A stretch of 64,000 nucleotides of DNA from Methanocella arvoryzae MRE50 (GCF_000063445.1 NC_009464.1:2914001-2978000), one strand, 5' to 3'; shown: positions 30,010 to 59,100, numbered from the stretch's first letter. Notes: generated from the letters alone by a model not told the origin. A program made the numbers and translations.

Positions 30010-30303
30010 GTGAGACTGCAAGTCGAACGCTGCGCTGTGCTATTCCTCACAGATTTCACGGATTACGACAGATTCCACAGATTTCTATCGGATTGCACAG
30101 ATTACGACGGATTTCACAGATAAATAAAAAATATTCTGATCGACTGTCTTATGATTGCTATAGGTGATCGAATAGTATTAGCGTATTCCATCTGTGATAT
30201 CGAGTAGTAATCTGTGGATTCAGCAGAGAAATCTGTGGAATCAATCGTAATCTGTGGCATCTGTGAGGACTGGCACAGCGCAGCGTTGGTTTTGATGTCT
30301 CAC
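30010..30303. mobile_element. MITE-like element, family III copy 1 ('CACAGATT' word arrays)
   Basis: Inverted ends: CGAACGCTGCGCTGTGC at 30024-30040 against GCACAGCGCAGCGTTGG at 30273-30289 (one mismatch), with outer GTGAGAC/GTCTCAC at 30010-30016 and 30297-30303. Inside, the left half is a run of CACAGATT-type words and the right half is the reverse complement (AATCTGTGG). A middle AT-rich block includes CAGATAAATAAAAAAT. It shares a 30-bp identical stretch (30191-30220) with the copy at 44.9-45.2 kb (45124-45153). It encodes no protein. A further partial end, TACAGCGCAGCGTTCG, lies at 30328-30343. Confidence 0.75.
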
Positions 30304-50222: not shown

Positions 50223-50416
50223 CCATCCCCCTTTAACTGTCAGATATTGCTGGCGCGGACTAAAAAGTGGTGGAGGAATTGGGCGGATAGTATTAGGGTA
50301 CGGTTGTAACTATGGCAGGTTCGATAGCCGAAGCTGGGGAGGGGTGACGTAGCGAGAAAACTTTCAAACCGGATAACGGGAAGCTTAATGTAGTTAAAAA
50401 GTAATTGACTACACGC

Positions 50417-51355
50417 ATGCAGGTGACTCTTGCGAACCAACAGCTTGCCAGTGCGAAGCCTTTCTTAAAATGGGCTGGCGGCAAGACGCAGTTACTAGAT
50501 GAGCTCGGCAAAAGGCTGCCTGCTAATATTATAGAGAAAGGTGTCATCGATCGCTATATAGAGCCATTTGTCGGCGGAGGCGCGATGTTCTTTTACCTGA
50601 AGGGCAGATTCGAGGTAAAAGAAGCATTTCTTTACGATATTAATCCAGAGCTGGTCCTGGGGTATAAAACCATACAGAAGAGCCCGCAAAAACTGATTTC
50701 CCGACTTAAAGAGCTTGAGGATGAATACCTGTCAAAGGCAGAGCAGCAAAGGCAAGAGATGTTCTACTCGATTCGCAGCTCATATAATTCTCAGGCTGAA
50801 ACTTTCAATTATAAAAAATACTCGGCCGCCTGGGTTGACCGGGTAGCGTATATGATCTTTTTAAACAAGACCTGCTATAACGGCCTTTTCAGGCAAAACA
50901 GCAAAGGCGGGTTTAACGTGCCTTTTGGCCGCTATAAAAATCCGTCTATTTGCGGTGCTGAAAACATTTTAGCGGTCAGCCATGCCCTCAAAAATACCCG
51001 AATAGAGCTGGGTGATTTCATAAAATCTGCAGCTCACATAGAAGCCGGTACACTGGTTTATCTCGATCCCCCCTACAGGCCTATTAGCACTACGTCAAGC
51101 TTTACGAGCTATGCAAAAGATGGGTTCGACGATGATGATCAGCGCCGGCTGGCAAAATATTTCCGCGAAATGGATGAGAAAAAGGCATTCCTCATGCTCA
51201 GCAATTCAGATCCTAAAAACGAGAATCCGTCTGATGACTTCTTTGAGCAGCTGTACGCTGGCTATCGTATTGATCGAGCACTGGCCAGCCGTATGATTAA
51301 TTGTGATGCAAAGAAGAGAGGCCATATTTACGAGTTAATCATCACAAACTACTGA
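50417..51355 (+). CDS. dam: DNA adenine methyltransferase (Dam/DpnM-type, D12 class)
   Basis: About 312 residues. Class alpha N6-adenine methylase motifs: FLKWAGGKTQLL (SAM binding, near residue 16), FVGGGAMFFYL, YDINPEL, and catalytic DPPY in VYLDPPYRPIS. Family members mostly modify GATC or similar sites. The ORF extends to TTG 50405, but ATG 50417 is the first good start. The gene is more AT-rich than the core genes. A restriction endonuclease gene follows after 70 bp. Confidence 0.85.
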   Translation: MQVTLANQQLASAKPFLKWAGGKTQLLDELGKRLPANIIEKGVIDRYIEPFVGGGAMFFYLKGRFEVKEAFLYDINPELVLGYKTIQKSPQKLISRLKELEDEYLSKAEQQRQEMFYSIRSSYNSQAETFNYKKYSAAWVDRVAYMIFLNKTCYNGLFRQNSKGGFNVPFGRYKNPSICGAENILAVSHALKNTRIELGDFIKSAAHIEAGTLVYLDPPYRPISTTSSFTSYAKDGFDDDDQRRLAKYFREMDEKKAFLMLSNSDPKNENPSDDFFEQLYAGYRIDRALASRMINCDAKKRGHIYELIITNY

Positions 51356-51425
51356 GTCCCGATAATAAAAACGATTTTAAATTAGTAGCAAGATTATTAA
51401 TTGCAATCAATTCAGGAGTAGTCGT

Positions 51426-52724
51426 ATGTCTTTAAATGATGAATCCTGGGACAAGATCTTCCAGCGCGGAGGCTATCTTGAAATGATCGAGAAAGACGGA
51501 TATTTCACGATATCTCCCGATGAGCTGAAAAAGCTCAGCGATAACAGAGAACCGAGACTGCTGGCAAAGATCGACAATAGCAGATCAAGGCCAGATATAT
51601 TTGAAAAATACGGTCTATCGATTCTGTCGATCAGGAATGATCTGTACCTTATTTTTAAAGACATAGACTCCCGATCCTTTTTCCAGCTCGATAAGCTCTA
51701 CAATGAGACAGCGACTGAAGAATATTCACCGGCCCGCGATTTAAGTATGTTCCAGAGCCTGAGCCTAAGCGAGATTTCCTCTGAATCTCAGGCAATCGAC
51801 TTCGCATATCTCGTATCGTTGATCAGGCGATTCACAGGCGAAGATGAACTGTATCTTACAATACGTGGGAGACTACGTTCAGAAAATTTCGGCTTTACAA
51901 TCCCTCCCCGGAATCACCCGGTCGAGGTTTCAGGTGTCCAGATCGAAGTTGATGCGGGTTTTGAAAGTCCAGACCGTATTTACATCTTAGAAGCAAAAAT
52001 GGGTAGAGTTGCTGATTTTAATATTCGACAACTATACTATCCTTACCGCGACTGGTCGCTGAAAACTTCAAAGGAAATAGTTCCGATCTTATTCATATAC
52101 ACGAACGGGCTTTTCTACTTTTTCGAGTTTGCATTCAGCGATGATGGCCAGTACGGCAATCTGAAGCTCATAAAAAGCAAATGTTATACTATCAACGAAG
52201 GGAAAAAATTATCAGTGGATTTCAAGATGCTCGTCGAGTCGCCCGTCGGAGACGAGCCGGACGATGTACCTTATCCTCAGGCCAATGATCTCGATAAGGT
52301 GATCGATATCGTAACAAACAACAAGGCTGGACTGACCACTAAACGCGCTATTGCCGAATTTTTCGATTTCGAGGAGCGGCAGGGCGACTATTATGCTAAT
52401 GCAGCGATCTATCTCGGACTATTAAAGAGGAAACCTAACTCTACCGAGTTTGTTACAACCCGGGAGGGTCAGGGTATCTCAAACTCTGAAAACCGAAGAA
52501 ACCGTAATCGGACCTTATTGCAGCAAATGGCAAAGAGGCCTACTTTCCATGAGATCATGCGCCATGCGTATGATAATAAGATCAAGATCGAGGATGTCAG
52601 CCCTGATTTTATTGCCAGTGTGATAAAAAAGTATTACGATATCAATGATAACACTGCAAGAAGGCGATCTTCCACGGTTCTGAGCTGGTTAAGGTGGATA
52701 AGTGAAAATGTAGAATTCATATGA
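51426..52724 (+). CDS. Type II restriction endonuclease-like protein (PD-(D/E)XK)
   Basis: A 432-residue protein. A PD-(D/E)XK-like core lies in GVQIEVDAGFESPDRIYILEAKMG (Asp near residue 175, E-x-K near 188-190). N-terminal domain (1-110) and C-terminal winged-helix-like region (about 285-432: KRAIAEFFDFEERQGDYYANAAIYLGLL, TRREGQ-like region, SSTVLSWLRWI) match a known family of archaeal type II restriction enzymes. It is coupled to the Dam-type methylase 70 bp upstream. The region is AT-rich compared with the flanking genes, which suggests transfer. Recognition site unknown. Confidence 0.75.
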   Translation: MSLNDESWDKIFQRGGYLEMIEKDGYFTISPDELKKLSDNREPRLLAKIDNSRSRPDIFEKYGLSILSIRNDLYLIFKDIDSRSFFQLDKLYNETATEEYSPARDLSMFQSLSLSEISSESQAIDFAYLVSLIRRFTGEDELYLTIRGRLRSENFGFTIPPRNHPVEVSGVQIEVDAGFESPDRIYILEAKMGRVADFNIRQLYYPYRDWSLKTSKEIVPILFIYTNGLFYFFEFAFSDDGQYGNLKLIKSKCYTINEGKKLSVDFKMLVESPVGDEPDDVPYPQANDLDKVIDIVTNNKAGLTTKRAIAEFFDFEERQGDYYANAAIYLGLLKRKPNSTEFVTTREGQGISNSENRRNRNRTLLQQMAKRPTFHEIMRHAYDNKIKIEDVSPDFIASVIKKYYDINDNTARRRSSTVLSWLRWISENVEFI

Positions 52725-53141
52725 ATGATAAATCAGCCCCAGAGTGACATCATGACTGTACTCATGGGCATGAATGAAACGGACACAGCCAAGTCAATGA
52801 TGGTAACCGGCAGTATAGACCGGGTGTTAAGCCGGGGAACTCACACTGTTTTCGCCCCAGGCGAAACGGTTATTCGAGAGATGGACGCTGATCGTGAGCA
52901 GATAAGCGCTCTGACGAACTACATGCATACCGCTAACCAAACTATGCAGGGCTTTATCACTGATAGCATGGTCATGCCCGCCGACATGGCCCGTGGTAAG
53001 ACGATTACCATGCTGAACGGCAAGACGCTTTCCGCCAGCAGCAAAGATGGCACACTGATGCTTGACGGGGCCAGGATCACCCGGGCTATACAGGCTACCA
53101 ACGGCATGATCTACGTGATCGACTCCATACCAGGCCAATGA
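52725..53141 (+). CDS. Fasciclin-domain protein lacking a signal peptide (probable displaced fragment)
   Basis: A 138-residue Fas1 domain: SDIMTVLMGMNETDTAKSMM, TVFAPGETVIREM, ALTNYMHTANQTMQGFITDSMVMPADMARGKTITMLNGKTL and ITRAIQATNGMIYVIDSIPG. It matches the fasciclin proteins at 53718 and 54658 from their domain start to their end, but the signal peptide present in both is missing. Its ATG follows the restriction enzyme stop directly. It would therefore be made inside the cell, or not at all. The R-M genes probably entered the 5' part of this gene and removed its start and promoter. Confidence 0.7.
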   Translation: MINQPQSDIMTVLMGMNETDTAKSMMVTGSIDRVLSRGTHTVFAPGETVIREMDADREQISALTNYMHTANQTMQGFITDSMVMPADMARGKTITMLNGKTLSASSKDGTLMLDGARITRAIQATNGMIYVIDSIPGQ

Positions 53142-53717
53142 TAAGAGAATTGGAAGTTGGCCCTATATATGTCGAGAATACCGCCAAGCTCGCCAAGAGG
53201 CCAAGCTCGCCAAGATACACATTTTCATGGAACTTCAAGGAGCCGGGCACGCCAAGGGCTTTTCGATCAGAAATAACACGAATAAGTGTATATAGCTTGG
53301 CGGGCTTGGCACCTTGGCGTTCCATGAAAAATTAGCTCTTGGCGGGCTTGGCTTCTTGGCGGGCTTGGCGGTGTTTTCGACCTACTCAGGGCCAACTTTC
53401 AATTTTTCATAGCCCCTACCTGAATATCTCATTTTTCATAAGGCGAGTGCTTGGCGGTATTTTCAACCATAGCAGGGCAAACGTTAAATTTTTCATACCC
53501 CTACTAAAAAATACACTTTTCATCCATGAGTCTTAGTGCTACCCACGAGAGCCATAGCAAGGGCAGAGCATTCGGCATATGGGCAACCACAAGCACCACA
53601 TCATAGGGGCTTCAAGTTCCTCCGGATTGTTTTAATCCCGCTACTCTGGGCAAACTCGGCTTTAATCCGTTAAGAATTTTTAACCATAGTAAAGTCAACC
53701 TCTTTTCGGTGATATGG
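53142..53717. other. 575-bp gap between the truncated and the second fasciclin gene
   Basis: It holds the family IV element to about 53510. The rest (53511-53690) is unique and without genes. A likely promoter for the second fasciclin gene, GGCTTTAATCC at about 53659-53669, precedes the ribosome site GGTGAT at 53708-53713. Confidence 0.5.
53153..53510. mobile_element. MITE-like element, family IV copy A ('CTTGGCGGG' word arrays)
   Basis: Left arm 53153-53215: a TTGGCCCTATAT-type end and CGCCAAG/GCTCGCCAAG words. Right arm 53295-53402: CTTGGCGGGCTTGGC words and TTCGACC, then AGGGCCAACTTTCAA, which is the complement of the left end. About 80 bp without genes lie between. A second partial right end (GCTTGGCGGTATTTTC) lies at 53450-53466 and AT-rich spacers run to 53510. 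From 53311 on, the right side is almost identical to that of copy B (56018-56195). Confidence 0.72.
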
Positions 53718-54278
53718 ATGGTTGGAATTCGAAAAATAGTAGTTATACTGGCGCTTGCCGCAATCCTGGCAGCCTTATCGGCACCGGCGGCCGCGCAGGG
53801 AGCCGCTATGCAGACTACGCAGCAGAGCAAGATGCAAATGGAGACATCAGGCAAAAATGTGATAGATACTCTGTCCGGCATGCCCGACGTGAGCATGGCT
53901 GCTTCTATGCTGAAGTCTTCGGAGAAGGAAATGAAGTGGGCAGGCTCACTTCACACGCTGTTCATCCCTACTGACGCTGCCTTGAGTAAAATGGGTATGG
54001 ATCAGGACAGGCTTAATAAGGTGATGTCCGACCGTGTTGTGGCTGGCAGGGCGATGCAGGGCTTCATGTCACTTGGCGAGGTGAAGCCGTCCGATATGAC
54101 TGACGGCAAGACGCTGAGCATGGTGAGCGGCAACAAGGTGACTATCCGGAACGTGGACGGCCAGCTCTCGGTGGACGGCGCGAAGATCACGAAGGCGATT
54201 AAGACCACCAACGGCATGATCTACATAATCGACTCCGTGCCGCCGTCGATGGTGACCATGGGATTCATGAGCCGGTAA
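53718..54278 (+). CDS. Exported fasciclin-domain protein
   Basis: About 186 residues. A signal peptide (VGIRKIVVILALAAILAALSAPAAAQ) is followed by a Gln/Met-rich linker and one Fas1 domain (residues 45-180; TLFIPTDAALSKMGM and TTNGMIYIIDSVPPSM at its conserved ends). Fas1 domains mediate cell adhesion and matrix contacts. The start is ATG 53718 with GGTGAT (53708-53713), by comparison with the paralogue at 54658, which has GGTGATAGG before its ATG. A terminator lies right after the gene. Confidence 0.82.
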   Translation: MVGIRKIVVILALAAILAALSAPAAAQGAAMQTTQQSKMQMETSGKNVIDTLSGMPDVSMAASMLKSSEKEMKWAGSLHTLFIPTDAALSKMGMDQDRLNKVMSDRVVAGRAMQGFMSLGEVKPSDMTDGKTLSMVSGNKVTIRNVDGQLSVDGAKITKAIKTTNGMIYIIDSVPPSMVTMGFMSR

Positions 54279-54657
54279 TCAGGGATTTTTTATCCCCTTC
54301 TTTTTAGGTAACACTTCAAGATATCCGGCATATTCCATAGAAAATTCCCCCACAGAAAACGCAGAAGGGTAAGCGACAATTTCCGGGAGCACCCGAAAGG
54401 CAGAGATCATCACTATTAAATAACCCTCTCAGACCTTTCCACACTCCCGGGCCTCCTCTCAGACCTCCCCACCCTCACTGACCTCCCAGCTCGAAAATCC
54501 TCCCCGGCCTCCGGGTTACTCCCCGACCTCCCGAAGATTTTTCAGGGGCATCACGGAACAATAAACCTGTTAATTTCGCGCTGGCCGCCGACAATCTCGA
54601 CTTTATATCACTGGCAATTTTGAACAGAACTCAGCACGTCCTCTCCTCGGTGATAGG
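54279..54657 (+). other. Intergenic region with pyrimidine-rich tract and promoter
   Basis: After the terminator, 54424-54535 is a strongly pyrimidine-rich plus strand with the motif GACCTCCC repeated about four times in slightly varied form. A TATA box (CTTTATATC, 54601-54609) gives a start near 54630 for the next fasciclin gene. No RNA gene recognised. Confidence 0.5.
54281..54308 (+). terminator. Terminator after the second fasciclin gene
   Basis: AGGGAT-TTTTT-ATCCCCT (54281-54298) is followed by TCTTTTT (to 54308), an intrinsic-type stem plus T-run. It starts 2 bp after the TAA stop codon. Confidence 0.55.
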
Positions 54658-55242
54658 ATGCTTAAAACCAGAAAAATCGTAGCTATCCTGGCTCTTGTAG
54701 CAATTCTGCTGGCCTTCGCTGCCCCGGCAGTAGCGCAGAGGACTGGAATGCAGCAGGGCATGCAGCAGACTGCTCAGCAGAAGAGCATGATACCGATGCA
54801 GTCGTCGAACAAGGACATGATGGCCACGATGTCGGACATGAAGGAAGCCAGCATGGCGGCAACGATGATGAAAGCTGCCGGCATGGATACCATGATGTCG
54901 AGCGGCAGCCACACGCTCTTCGTTCCCGGCGATTCTGCCATGAAGAAAATGGGCTCTGGCTCAGACCTGAGTAAGATCGGCCAGATGACGACTGACAAAT
55001 CCATGGCCACGAATGTCATGAAGGGCTTCATTATGGACAAGTCTGTCATGCCCTCTGAAATGACCGACGGCAAGACGCTGACCATGATGAACGGCAAGAC
55101 TATGACCGTCAAGAACGTGGGCGGCCAGATGACCCTGGACGGCGCGAAGATCACGAAGGCAGTCCAGACCACCAACGGCATGATCTACATGATCGACTCA
55201 GTGCCCTCGTCGATGATGAGCATGCCTATGATGAGCAAATAA
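54658..55242 (+). CDS. Exported fasciclin-domain protein, Met-rich
   Basis: A 194-residue protein. It begins with a signal peptide (MLKTRKIVAILALVAILLAF, then AAPAVAQ) and is followed by a Met/Gln-rich linker. The Fas1 domain (residues 45-185) carries HTLFVPGDSAMKKMG and TNGMIYMIDSVPSSM. Methionine is unusually frequent and could bind copper or scavenge oxidants, but this is inference. It is the third of three paralogues in a row; ribosome site GGTGAT at 54649-54654 and a strong promoter upstream. A clear terminator follows. Confidence 0.85.
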   Translation: MLKTRKIVAILALVAILLAFAAPAVAQRTGMQQGMQQTAQQKSMIPMQSSNKDMMATMSDMKEASMAATMMKAAGMDTMMSSGSHTLFVPGDSAMKKMGSGSDLSKIGQMTTDKSMATNVMKGFIMDKSVMPSEMTDGKTLTMMNGKTMTVKNVGGQMTLDGAKITKAVQTTNGMIYMIDSVPSSMMSMPMMSK

Positions 55243-55459
55243 AAACAATGGGGGTATAGTTATACCCCTTCCTTTTTTGGGCTGCCCGTGATGGCAATCC
55301 GAACGTTGCGCTTTGTTTTAAATAATACTTGGCCTCGTCTCGTGCCCCTACTCGAGTTCAGATGATCCATCTTTTGCAGAAATTATTTCTTATGCAATAC
55401 TGGGTCAGGTAATTATCCCGTCATAGGGTAAGAACCTTGTAGCTTTTTAGGTACGCTTT
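55243..55459. other. Intergenic region before the GxxExxY element
   Basis: After the terminator there is a degenerate family III end (CGAACGTTGCGCTTTG, about 55291-55306). No gene seen from 55307 to 55459. Confidence 0.4.
55250..55277 (+). terminator. Terminator after the third fasciclin gene
   Basis: GGGGTATA-GT-TATACCCC (55251-55268), a perfect 8-bp inverted repeat, is followed by CCTTTTTT (to 55277). It lies 8 bp after the stop codon. Confidence 0.7.
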
Positions 55460-55510
55460 AAAATGCCGCCAAGCTCGCCAAGGGGCCAAGCTCGCCAAGA
55501 GATATTTGAG
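55460..55510. repeat. Left arm of family IV copy B
   Basis: AAAATGCCGCCAAG and GCTCGCCAAG-type words repeated, nearly the same as the left arm of copy A (53190-53215). It ends about 55 bp before the ATG of the GxxExxY gene. Outward of 55460 the terminal sequence of copy A is no longer recognisable, so this end is decayed. Confidence 0.65.
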
Positions 55511-55564
55511 AAGAATACTTATTTACAGAAAATTGTATTATAGTTAATGGCAGGTGTATTTACG

Positions 55565-56002
55565 ATGAGATACGAAGAGCCTCCAAAATATTTGGACGAG
55601 ATGGGCAAAGTCATAGTAAATGCTGCATACAAAGTTCATGAACGGTGGGGACCAGGCCTTCTTGAGCACTTCTACCAGATAGCGCTAATGAGGGAAATAT
55701 CAAAAGCTGGGCTGGAAGTAAAATCTGAGGTATATCTACCTATCATACTGGATGATCTTGTTATTGAAAATGCATATCGACTTGATTTACTTGTTGAGAA
55801 CGAGATAATAATTGAAATAAAAACTGTTGAAAAACTATCGGTTGTACACTATAAACAAATACGAACATATATGAAATTATTTAACAGTCGATTAGGGTAT
55901 CTGATAAACTTTAACACTGAACTCATCAGAAAAGGAATCAATAGGGAAATATTATCAAAACCCAGTGAGCAGACAACATCTCCCGGAAGACAGGAACCCT
56001 GA
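55565..56002 (+). CDS. GxxExxY protein (PDDEXK_3-like nuclease family)
   Basis: About 145 residues. The namesake motif G31-LL-E34-HF-Y37 follows HERWGP. A PD-(D/E)XK-like core is visible: D74 in YRLDLLVE and E84-I-K86 in IIIEIKTVE, then the helix HYKQIRTYMKLF and LGYLINFN. In this family nuclease activity is suspected but not proven. AT-rich, unlike its neighbours. The start is set at ATG 55565 because AGGTGT is 8 nt upstream; ATG 55547 is the alternative. The gene sits inside two inward-facing arms of the family IV repeat. Confidence 0.8.
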   Translation: MRYEEPPKYLDEMGKVIVNAAYKVHERWGPGLLEHFYQIALMREISKAGLEVKSEVYLPIILDDLVIENAYRLDLLVENEIIIEIKTVEKLSVVHYKQIRTYMKLFNSRLGYLINFNTELIRKGINREILSKPSEQTTSPGRQEP

Positions 56003-56017
56003 TACTCTGATCACAAA

Positions 56018-56195
56018 GCCCTTGGCGTTCCATGAAAAATTGGCTCTTGGCGGGCTTGGCTCCTTGGCGCTCTTGGCGGTATTTTCGACCTATACAGGGC
56101 CAACTTTTAATTTTTCATAGCCTTCACCTGAATATTCCATTTTCATAGGGCGAGCGCTTGGCGGTATTTTCGACTCACACAGGGCTAACTTTCGA
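56018..56195. repeat. Right arm of family IV copy B
   Basis: CTTGGCGGGCTTGGC, CTTGGCGC and CTTGGCGGTATTTTCGACC words, then a GGGCCAACTTTTAATTTTTC end, followed by a second partial end (GCTTGGCGGTATTTTCG, 56157-56173). Apart from scattered changes this stretch equals 53311-53500 of copy A. It touches the stop of the helicase-nuclease gene (56198). Confidence 0.75.
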
Positions 56196-56197
56196 TC

Positions 56198-59100
56198 TTA
56201 TCCCCATCTCGGGCAATACATCTTATACGGGCAATTCCCGGTATATCCGACCTGTCCGCACTCCTCAATTACTTCGAACCCGTGTTCGTAGTCGTAAGCA
56301 ATGTTATTCGCCATCTGTACGAACCACTGTCTGACCTTCTCGATCTCGATAGCTTTGCAGTTGCTTCCCACGCTCTTCATGGTGCCGTCGTCGCATAGCT
56401 CGAAGGTCCGGGGCTTTTCTTCCTCCAGCAGCTCTAAAGTCGCCCGCTTTGGTGTCAGCCTTTTTTCCCGCAGCGCCGGGTCTCTCTGGAGCGCCAGCAT
56501 GTACATGGTGATCTGCCGCTCCCGGTCTTCGGTGCCGGGCTCCCGGCCGGTTTTGTAGTCGATGATCTCTGCGTCGCCGTTTTCGCTCAGCTGATCGACT
56601 CTGTCGATCTTTCCGGTGAACTGGAAACCGTCCATGGTGAAGTTGAAGAACTGCTCGACTCCGACGCTGCGCCTGATGGTGTCTTTGTTCCTGGCCCAGA
56701 AGACGTCGAAAATCCTCTTCGCCTTGTCTTTGTCCACGCCGGCAAAGTCGGGCAGCAGCGAGGTTTTTTCAGCGATCGCATCCAGTTCCTCTCTGGTCGA
56801 GATCTGCTGTTTTACCGCAAGCTCGAGGGTTTTGTGGATGTAGTTGCCGAAGCTCAGGGGGCTTTCGCCTTCGCTGTCTTTTGTCCTGGATGGTATGTTC
56901 AGCAGGTACTGTAGCTCGTACTTCTTCGGGCACTCTTCGTAAGTCTTGAGTCCCGAGTAGGACAGCCTGACCTCTTTCGGGTCGAACTGCATGCCCCGGG
57001 GGATGCCTGCGTCGAGTTCTGCACGGATCACTGCCGCCTCTTCTCCGGCCATCGCCGCCTGGGGGCAGTTGATCGCGATGGGGCGGCCGCAGAGGTGCTG
57101 GTATAACAATAAGTTGTACAGTGCCAGGTCGGGCTCGGAGTCGATGGTGGAGAGAATCTGGCGCTTGATCTCGTTCTTCTTCCGGTCGAGATCGCTGTCC
57201 CTGGTGGCTACTGCTGCCTTTTCCTCCGCGTCCTCGACAAGTTCCATGTCCGGGTGCAGTTCGCCGCTATTGTAGCAGGCTTCTGCAATAAACATGGACG
57301 GCGGTCTTTCGCTCTCGCCGTAGCTGGCGGGGTAGCAGAGGTAGAGCCGGTCTTTCGCCCGGGTGAAGGCGACGTAGGCGAGCCTGCGCTCTTCTTTGAG
57401 CTTGAAGTCCTGCTTTCTCTTTTTCAGCGCCTCCTCGATCTCGGCTTCCGGCAGGCTGAACACGTCTGCGTATCGATCGTTTAGCTGATCGGGCACCAGC
57501 GGCTCTCTGCCTCCTCTGGACAGGGGGAACTTATCCTTAGCCAGATCTACGACAAAGACGTGGCTGTATTCGAGGCCTTTGGCGCCGTGGCAGGTCTTGA
57601 GCACCACGCCACCTGCCTTTTCTTGCCGGGGCAGCTCCCCGTCGTCGCCGATCTCGTCGAGTAGCTCCACGTACTCGATGAACCCCTGCAAATCAGTTCC
57701 ATAAAGGTCCTGAAAACCGGTGACTATGTCGTGCAGGGCTTTGAGGTTCAGGAGCGATGTCTTGCTCTCGCTGCTGTTGTCGTGGGTGAACTCTCTTGAA
57801 AGGCCGGACAGCTCGTAGATGTCGAGCAGCAGATCGGGCAGTTCCTTGTTGGTCGAAGCCCGGAGTTCCATTATCCTGTCGACGAGGTGGCGGATCTTCA
57901 CCCGGCCTTCTTCGGACAGCCCTCTCGGCAGGCTGCCGGTGAGCACGCCCTGGATGCTGTCCCGCTTTGCGGCGGCCGAAAGCAGGTGTACGTCTCGGAT
58001 CGATACCCCGTACCGGTACTGGAGCAGCTTATACCAGAGCTGATCCGCCCCGTGCCGGGGCATCTCGAGGCTGGCGAGCACGTATAAATAGGCTAACGCC
58101 GTCCGGATTTCCGGGCGCTTCAGGAAGCCCGTGGTGGTCGAGACCTGGTAGGGTATGGCCCGCTGCTTTAGCGCCGCCTCTATGGGCCGCAGCGAGGAGT
58201 ACGAGCGGAAGAGTACCGCGATCTCCTCGGGGGCCACGCCTTCCGCCAGCAGTCGGTCGATCTCCTCCACGATGCGGCGGGCCTGCTCGTTCTGGTTCAG
58301 GGTTTTAAGGAGCATGACCCGGGTGCCTTCCCTGTGATCGAAGGCCTGCAGGAGCCTGGCGTCATCTGCCTTCTGGTAGTTGTTCCTGATCAGCCTGTAT
58401 GCGGTGCGCAGGATACTGTCCGTCGACCTGTAGTTCTCAGTCAGGTCGAATGTGGCCGGGCGGTACTCCTCTTTGAAGGTGTCGATGTTCTCCGGGTAGG
58501 CGCCTCTGAATCCGTAGATCGACTGGTTCACGTCGCCGACTACGGTGATGCCTTTGCCATCCCCTGCCAGAATTTTAAGCAGCTCGTACTGCTGGCGGTT
58601 CGTGTCCTGAAATTCGTCCACGATGACGTAGTCGAACTTGTCTGCCAGTACTTCGTGGCCTCTGGCTCTGGCGTAGTCGATCGTCAGCCTGATCATGTCC
58701 GCATAGTCCAGCAGCAGCTTTTGTGCCTTGATCTGCTCGTACTTCTTCCACGCTTCGAGGAACTTCAGATATCCTTTGTATTCCTCGAAAAGTTCCAGGA
58801 ACTCGGTGATCTTCTTCTTTTCTTCTCTCGCCTGTTTATCCTTGAACTGCTCCGTCCGCAACCTGACTGTCGCCGCGCCTGCAGCGCTCTCGATGTCCTC
58901 TTCAGGGCAGATCTCTCGCATGCTGGCTTCGAGTTGCCCGAGGTAGCCTTCGTAGTCTGCCCAGGTGAGGCCCATGTCTTTAGCCCGCTGGATGCTGGTA
59001 ATGTAGTGGCTGGCAAGCCTTGGGGGCACACCCGCTTCTTTGCAGAGTATAAAGCCCCCGTCTTTCTCGTCGAGCAGCCTGTACCGCTCGTCTATGCCAG

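Follow-up and report, generated by a model that had tools for sequence, protein, structure and literature searches.

The closest described counterpart of the elements considered here is the REPIN-RAYT (TnpA-REP) system, which, according to two reports (PMC3116915, PMC8266576), is a single-gene chromosomal locus flanked by repeats that it is thought to mobilise, with large intergenic populations of gene-less inverted doublets and with co-variation of repeat and protein. In this study, we analyzed a 64,000-nucleotide stretch of Methanocella arvoryzae MRE50 (hereafter the window; G000:C1:2914001-2978000, G000 being a 3.18 Mb single-contig archaeal genome) that carries a GxxExxY gene between repeat arrays, and found the same features there and at GxxExxY loci of other archaea and bacteria. 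Our reading, to which we assign a rough probability of 0.6, is that GxxExxY loci are REPIN/RAYT-like intragenomic replicators driven by a Cas4-like nuclease, the gene-less copies being moved in trans. As part of that reading, the element would be a unit of approximately 0.5 kb made up of a lone gene for a minimal PD-(D/E)XK nuclease and, at its ends, inward-facing arrays of a heptamer (consensus CRCNNA[G/T]) that differs from element to element. The proposal builds on direct observations of the unit structure and its fixed orientation, its dispersal, its occupied, decayed and empty sites, gene-less populations in the same genomes and the covariation of word and protein.

In the window, the GxxExxY gene occupies positions 55565-56002 on the plus strand (145 aa, with an upstream in-frame ATG at 55547 as an alternative start); the assignment is based on the open frame, an AlphaFold2 model and profile matches above the curated cut-off to PF13366 (PDDEXK_3; 3.7e-38) and TIGR04256 (2.7e-35). 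The initial annotation had placed this gene between inward-facing CGCCAAG arrays, and such arrays were indeed recovered, one on each side (copy B). The left array (55467-55499, plus strand), with CGCCAAG at 55467, 55476 and 55493 and GCCAAG at 55485, reads CGCCAAG-CT-CGCCAAG-GG-GCCAAG-CT-CGCCAAG. The right array (56021-56078, minus strand) has reverse complement words at 56021, 56046, 56055, 56063 and 56072, and is followed by an outer right arm (56079-56199, minus strand) with an extra CTTGGCG at 56157-56163, an arm that recurs in copy A, described below. The gene is AT-rich, as had been noted, with a GC content of 37.0% vs 54.7% for the whole window, and in all 127 genes compared the GC content of the gene was below that of its locus.

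To see how general this layout is, we searched 121 non-identical GxxExxY loci, archaeal as well as bacterial from many phyla, for the CRCNNA[G/T] heptamer with 1-3 nt spacers. In the 80 loci that had been added from Bacteroidota, Planctomycetota, Proteobacteria, Kiritimatiellota, Acidobacteriota, Marinimicrobia and others, the typical layout was CACAGAG-N-CACAGAG-NN-CACAGAG, the gene, and then the reverse complement. Within 100 bp of the gene, forward motifs reached 21 per kb on the upstream side and reverse motifs 23.5 per kb on the downstream side, about tenfold above the baseline of approximately 2.4 per kb, vs 3-4 per kb in the wrong orientation. The expectation, set beforehand as a test, that inverted arrays also flank GxxExxY genes elsewhere held on both sides for 68 of the 121 loci and on at least one side for 104, and failed for the 17 genes with no detectable array on either side; because every locus was selected for the resemblance of its protein to archaeal members, or taken from a genome recovered through that resemblance, the fraction with arrays may be lower for the whole family. 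Outward-facing clusters, used as a control, were present on both sides of 5 and on at least one side of 33 of the 121 loci; the corresponding numbers were 0 and 11 of 108 for windows 1 kb away, and 0 and 23 of 363 for Markov sequence. Since the motif was derived from the same loci, a motif-free de novo 7-mer test served as an independent check, and it gave 57/121 loci for inverted words, 14/121 for direct words and 48/601 for mismatched loci. Unit spacings of 8, 9 and 10 nt were counted 170, 110 and 32 times, respectively, and none of 7 nt.

The median length of the unit was 542 bp, with arrays approximately 40 bp from the domain, which leaves no space between the arrays for any gene besides GxxExxY; no DDE, HUH, serine or tyrosine transposase was found inside the unit. 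The suggestion that the nuclease travels as cargo was therefore not supported, since if the element is autonomous, its only gene should be the driver. Two further observations concern the loci themselves. In L068 (Prevotellaceae), the reading frame of the GxxExxY protein already begins in the left word array, which supplies its first residues (MEHKDTKSHK...), as in 11 of 65 loci, so that annotated N-termini of this family may encode repeat. L107, on a contig labelled Kuenenia stuttgartiensis, shares 93% identity over 4 kb with L098 from a Flavobacteriales contig, and judging from this similarity is very likely a binning contaminant rather than a transfer.

The word of the array followed the protein. 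On a tree of 127 proteins, in which many forks were unresolved, the dominant word required 44 changes vs 65.5 +- 1.8 after label shuffling; word position 5 required 14 (30.6 shuffled) and position 7 only 3 (11.5 shuffled), counts that were reached by none of 500 shuffles. Words ending in -AT were nearly all in one protein clade. Host composition is not the cause, as paralogues of a single genome (G015) use CACAGAG, CGCAAAG, CACTGAT, CACGGAT and CACAGAT.

With regard to the protein, the AlphaFold2 model (72 sequences) had a predicted local distance difference test score of 92 and a predicted template modelling score of 0.84, and the nearest solved folds found by Foldseek were Cas4 SSO0001 (best 4ic1, E 2.9e-3, probability 0.99), followed by LHK-Exo, lambda exonuclease, RecE and AdnAB. 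Among the catalytic residues, D74, E84, K86 and Y102 were invariant in the protein alignment, Q98 was conserved in at least 90%, and E34 and Y37 of the GxxExxY motif were also invariant. Sub-threshold Pfam Cas4 matches were present in 33 of 72 members. By residues and modelled fold, GxxExxY is predicted to be a PD-(D/E)XK nuclease of the RecB/Cas4 clade. For closely related pairs, some of them paralogues from a single genome, the dN/dS ratio (nonsynonymous to synonymous substitution rates) was 0.03-0.2, indicating purifying selection; GxxExxY is an intact predicted nuclease maintained by selection.

Gene-less copies form the second part of the argument. The initial annotation had reported a gene-less copy with the same arms 2 kb from copy B, and this copy (copy A) was confirmed. 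Its left arm (53148-53256, plus strand; words at 53182, 53191, 53200 and 53208) and right arm (53296-53404, minus strand; words at 53296, 53313, 53338, 53355 and 53364) show 81% complementarity along their 109 nt and are separated by 39 nt, and an outer extension of the right arm (53405-53510, minus strand) contains a second CTTGGCGGTATTTTC unit. The left arrays of the two copies match as claimed, at 95% over 39 nt (53177-53215 and 55462-55500). The right arms, outer arm of copy B included, had been described as alike nearly base for base over 190 bp; this holds for 124 bp (53312-53435 and 56020-56143, 90%), and the match is weaker further out. The likeness is well beyond chance, given that the CGCCAAGNNCGCCAAG doublet occurs 75 times in G000 (37 and 38 times on the two strands) and a reversed-pattern control 0 times. 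Copy B, whose left outer end had been called decayed, has no counterpart of the outer left arm seen in copy A; because outer arms vary between copies across the G000 genome, decay is only one possible reading.

Plus-then-minus CGCCAAGNNCGCCAAG pairs were found at at least 22 places in G000, mostly about 100-200 bp apart. These gene-less copies have arms and interior in common and are dispersed in intergenic space, so that copy A is one member of a genome-wide population, and its earlier interpretation as an internal-deletion form private to copy B was rejected. In 31 distinct G000 contexts, anchored on the first two words so that only words past the anchors were scored, per-position conservation was 0.87-1.0 in words 3 and 4 and 0.35-0.65 in the 2-nt spacers, and spacers were equal between the two arms of one element in 5 of 22 cases (4.5 expected from shuffling). 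With words conserved and spacers neither conserved nor matched between arms, the words look like recognised sites rather than the outcome of selection for a perfect stem. This pattern bears on an RNA-level explanation, in which the arms pair in the transcript to give a stem that acts as a terminator or in processing, like those of 23S rRNA intervening sequences, with the gene in the loop and dispersal incidental. The arms are inverted and able to pair, and the PF05635 family (see below) takes its name from an intervening-sequence protein with the same layout. Nevertheless, we consider such an explanation improbable in view of the lack of kept complementarity between spacers, the intergenic dispersal of gene-less pairs and an Rfam search that matched no known RNA family.

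The association of arrays with the gene extends to other members of the order and phylum. Four PF13366 matches were found in G000, the window gene among them. Of the other three, L001 has arrays of another word (CACAGAT) at its flanks, L004, a remnant of a gene, has CGCCAAG arrays next to it, and L002 has no array. A further repeated word, CCTCTCAGACCT / GGAGGTCAGAGAGG, forms arrays around the L004 remnant (L004 1950-2130) and at window positions 54425-54486. In three further genomes of the order, most GxxExxY genes lie between inward arrays with a word of their own, such as CACGGAG in L038/L041/L043, CGCGAAG in L045/L047, CGCCAAG in L040 and a CACTAAG-type word in L036, and the four genomes contain 178, 257, 265 and 386 CRCNNAGNNCRCNNAG doublets (controls 17, 43, 27 and 8, respectively). 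Among 110 genomes of the phylum, an array excess was present in 9 of 10 genomes with GxxExxY and in 3 of 100 without (Fisher 5e-10), a difference that persists when the order of the window is left out (p = 5e-5).

Mobility of the unit, proposed from the window alone, was supported by comparison of sites: gene and arrays form a discrete unit that inserts at different places, and gene-less forms are numerous. First, the near-identical gene-bearing copies L038, L041 and L043 (G001) are alike as far as sharply defined ends, past which they have nothing in common, and L045 and L047 are likewise near-identical to sharp ends within unrelated surroundings. Second, related genomes differ at a single Spirosoma intergenic site: G004 and G047 carry the intact element, others a decayed one with a pseudogene and persisting arrays, L163/L164 the arrays alone, and at least 9 relatives no element at all. 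Third, the Prevotella purE-ispG gap is 615 bp long in G021, which has the element, and spans 0-123 bp in the 27 relatives measured, and these empty sites have no array of the GxxExxY word class. Several copies, some of them broken, were present in many genomes. Judged by such comparisons of sequence, with the same unit at unrelated sites and sites both occupied and empty, GxxExxY loci would qualify as transposable elements in the general sense. A homing-type system, in which GxxExxY cuts word-bearing sites and is copied in by recombination, would also account for a small nuclease as the sole gene and for the states of the Spirosoma site, the gene-less pairs then being targets rather than offspring. 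It is nonetheless unlikely, as the empty Prevotella sites lack arrays, and the long arms and interior common to gene-less copies look like element copying rather than pre-existing targets.

Other repeats were noticed at such sites. Those of L169-L171 and L289, which lack a GxxExxY element, carry other inverted heptamer arrays (GTTTGTNGTTTG... and GTTTACNGTTTACGG...), suggesting further word classes. In Spirosoma (L223-L242; G004, G047, G026, G033, G035 and G046), a dispersed palindromic element of approximately 115 bp, present in several copies per genome, consists of contiguous NNNAATG heptamers (AATGGATAATGTACAATGG...CCATTGTACATTATCCATT); it belongs to a different word class and was rejected as a gene-less GxxExxY form.

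Only 8 of 72,556 plasmid records contained GxxExxY, and no match was found in 50,697 phage records, which rules out phage or plasmid cargo; it appears that the element is chromosomal and intragenomic. The same counts disfavor a defence or toxin-like nuclease locus whose arrays mark self or regulate the gene. The PD-(D/E)XK fold and an adjoining type II restriction-modification pair would fit such a locus, which we regard as very improbable: PADLOC gave no match for the window protein, the copies lie in ordinary housekeeping intergenic sites, and no defence-island pattern was seen, although none was sought.

How might these elements spread? In our replicator reading, the nuclease would recognise its own words and cut in or near the arrays, probably as a hairpin or cruciform formed by the inverted arms; host repair or replication would then complete copying into new sites, and gene-less inverted pairs would be mobilised in trans. 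The logic would be that of REPIN-RAYT, with a Cas4-like nuclease replacing the HUH enzyme.

Several results weigh against this reading. Its weak point is the chemistry: the PD-(D/E)XK nucleases of this clade cleave or trim DNA but are not known to ligate it, so that host repair or an unseen partner would have to provide integration. The 17 genes without arrays also count against it. No consistent target-site duplication, which the initial annotation had led us to look for, was found at L038/L041/L043, at L045/L047 or at empty sites (the closest of which were too diverged), and no precise excision was seen. The covariation of word and protein could partly reflect common descent of linked DNA, and such linked descent would mean that gene and arrays travel together. 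In addition, G138 and G146 have an array excess (106 vs 4 and 129 vs 44, respectively) with no GxxExxY gene found, for which gene loss, gaps in metagenome-assembled genomes or another driver are possible causes. Finally, genes of the unrelated PF05635 family (23S rRNA intervening-sequence protein, four-helix bundle) in Spirosoma and Desantisbacteria (L244, L245, L247, L256, L259 and L260; G024, G033 and G047) are likewise enclosed by inverted arrays that face inward, their words being specific to the gene and of period about 7 (TGATGAA x4/x10, GTTGTAG, AGTCATG and GTATGAT).

This similar layout would also fit shared outside machinery, and it makes more plausible the main rival of our reading, namely that another enzyme, or slippage in host replication or host repair, mobilises the arrays, with GxxExxY, like PF05635, as a passenger or regulator; the missing ligation chemistry and the arrays in G138 and G146 point the same way. 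We still consider this rival rather unlikely. The unit holds no other gene, the word tracks GxxExxY phylogeny, and purifying selection acts on the gene. Moreover, HUH transposases (Y1, RAYT/IS200; PF01797) are absent from the two complete Methanocellales genomes, G000 and G001, despite 178 and 265 array doublets, which excludes RAYT/IS200-type mobilisation in trans in these two.

The surroundings of the elements in the window are as follows. A Dam-type methyltransferase and a REase_II match (2.2e-56) form the type II restriction-modification pair at 50405-52724, just left of copy A; three tandem fasciclin-domain genes follow at 52725-55242, with copy A after the first and copy B after the third, and the open reading frames near the GxxExxY gene also include a large helicase-like protein. 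Gene-less arrays were additionally found at 30047-30121 (CACAGATT..., no strand assigned), where the word, by word match only, is that of the second G000 element (G000:C1:1938273, L001), and at 2098-2134 (CACAGAGGTCACAGAGA, no strand assigned), with a different word in the same pattern. A AAGTACGCA tandem array of similar unit length is located at 68-113.

GxxExxY proteins are annotated across many phyla without a function, and our reading provides a testable role together with a target sequence beside each gene. If true, it would explain abundant intergenic repeats that have so far had no explanation (CACAGAG-, CACGGAG-, CGCAAAG- and CGCCAAG-type arrays), would represent a second solution to the REPIN-RAYT problem by an unrelated enzyme related to Cas4, and would turn the word-protein pairs into a naturally occurring library of specificities for a small nuclease. 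More tentatively, these elements may be a new replicator class of both archaea and bacteria whose lone Cas4-like nuclease would recognise arrays of its own diversifying heptamer and spread itself together with large populations of gene-less hairpins, with PF05635-type word-array elements as a parallel branch. The literature that we searched, which did not include bioRxiv or most subscription papers, mentioned GxxExxY in passing and contained neither the array sequences used as queries nor a description of such elements.

Compared with known systems, the array population and the enzyme co-vary as in REPIN-RAYT, both in co-occurrence and in the fit of word to tree. However, the REPIN-RAYT enzyme is of the HUH tyrosine type, a defining point on which the Cas4-like GxxExxY protein falls outside; its ends are one GTAG-tagged palindrome rather than arrays of 7-nt words with 1-3 nt spacers, and GxxExxY elements, unlike REPIN-RAYT, are found in archaea and across bacterial phyla. 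Miniature inverted-repeat transposable elements and insertion sequences share with GxxExxY inverted ends, gene-bearing and gene-less forms, AT-richness, multiple copies and decaying pseudogenes, but have one fixed terminal inverted repeat instead of word arrays; the GxxExxY unit, moreover, holds no DDE or HUH transposase, and no target-site duplication was seen for it. With Cas4, lambda exonuclease and RecB-type nucleases, GxxExxY has in common the fold and the D...ExK...QxxxY residues; it differs from these in its minimal domain of approximately 130 aa and its own array-bounded element, and no cas1, cas2 or CRISPR association was present at the window locus, the only one screened. The S23/IVP (PF05635) loci are similar in layout, each having one small gene enclosed by inward-facing inverted arrays of element-specific words, but their protein is unrelated and their heptamers are contiguous (period about 7), whereas those of GxxExxY are separated by 1-3 nt.

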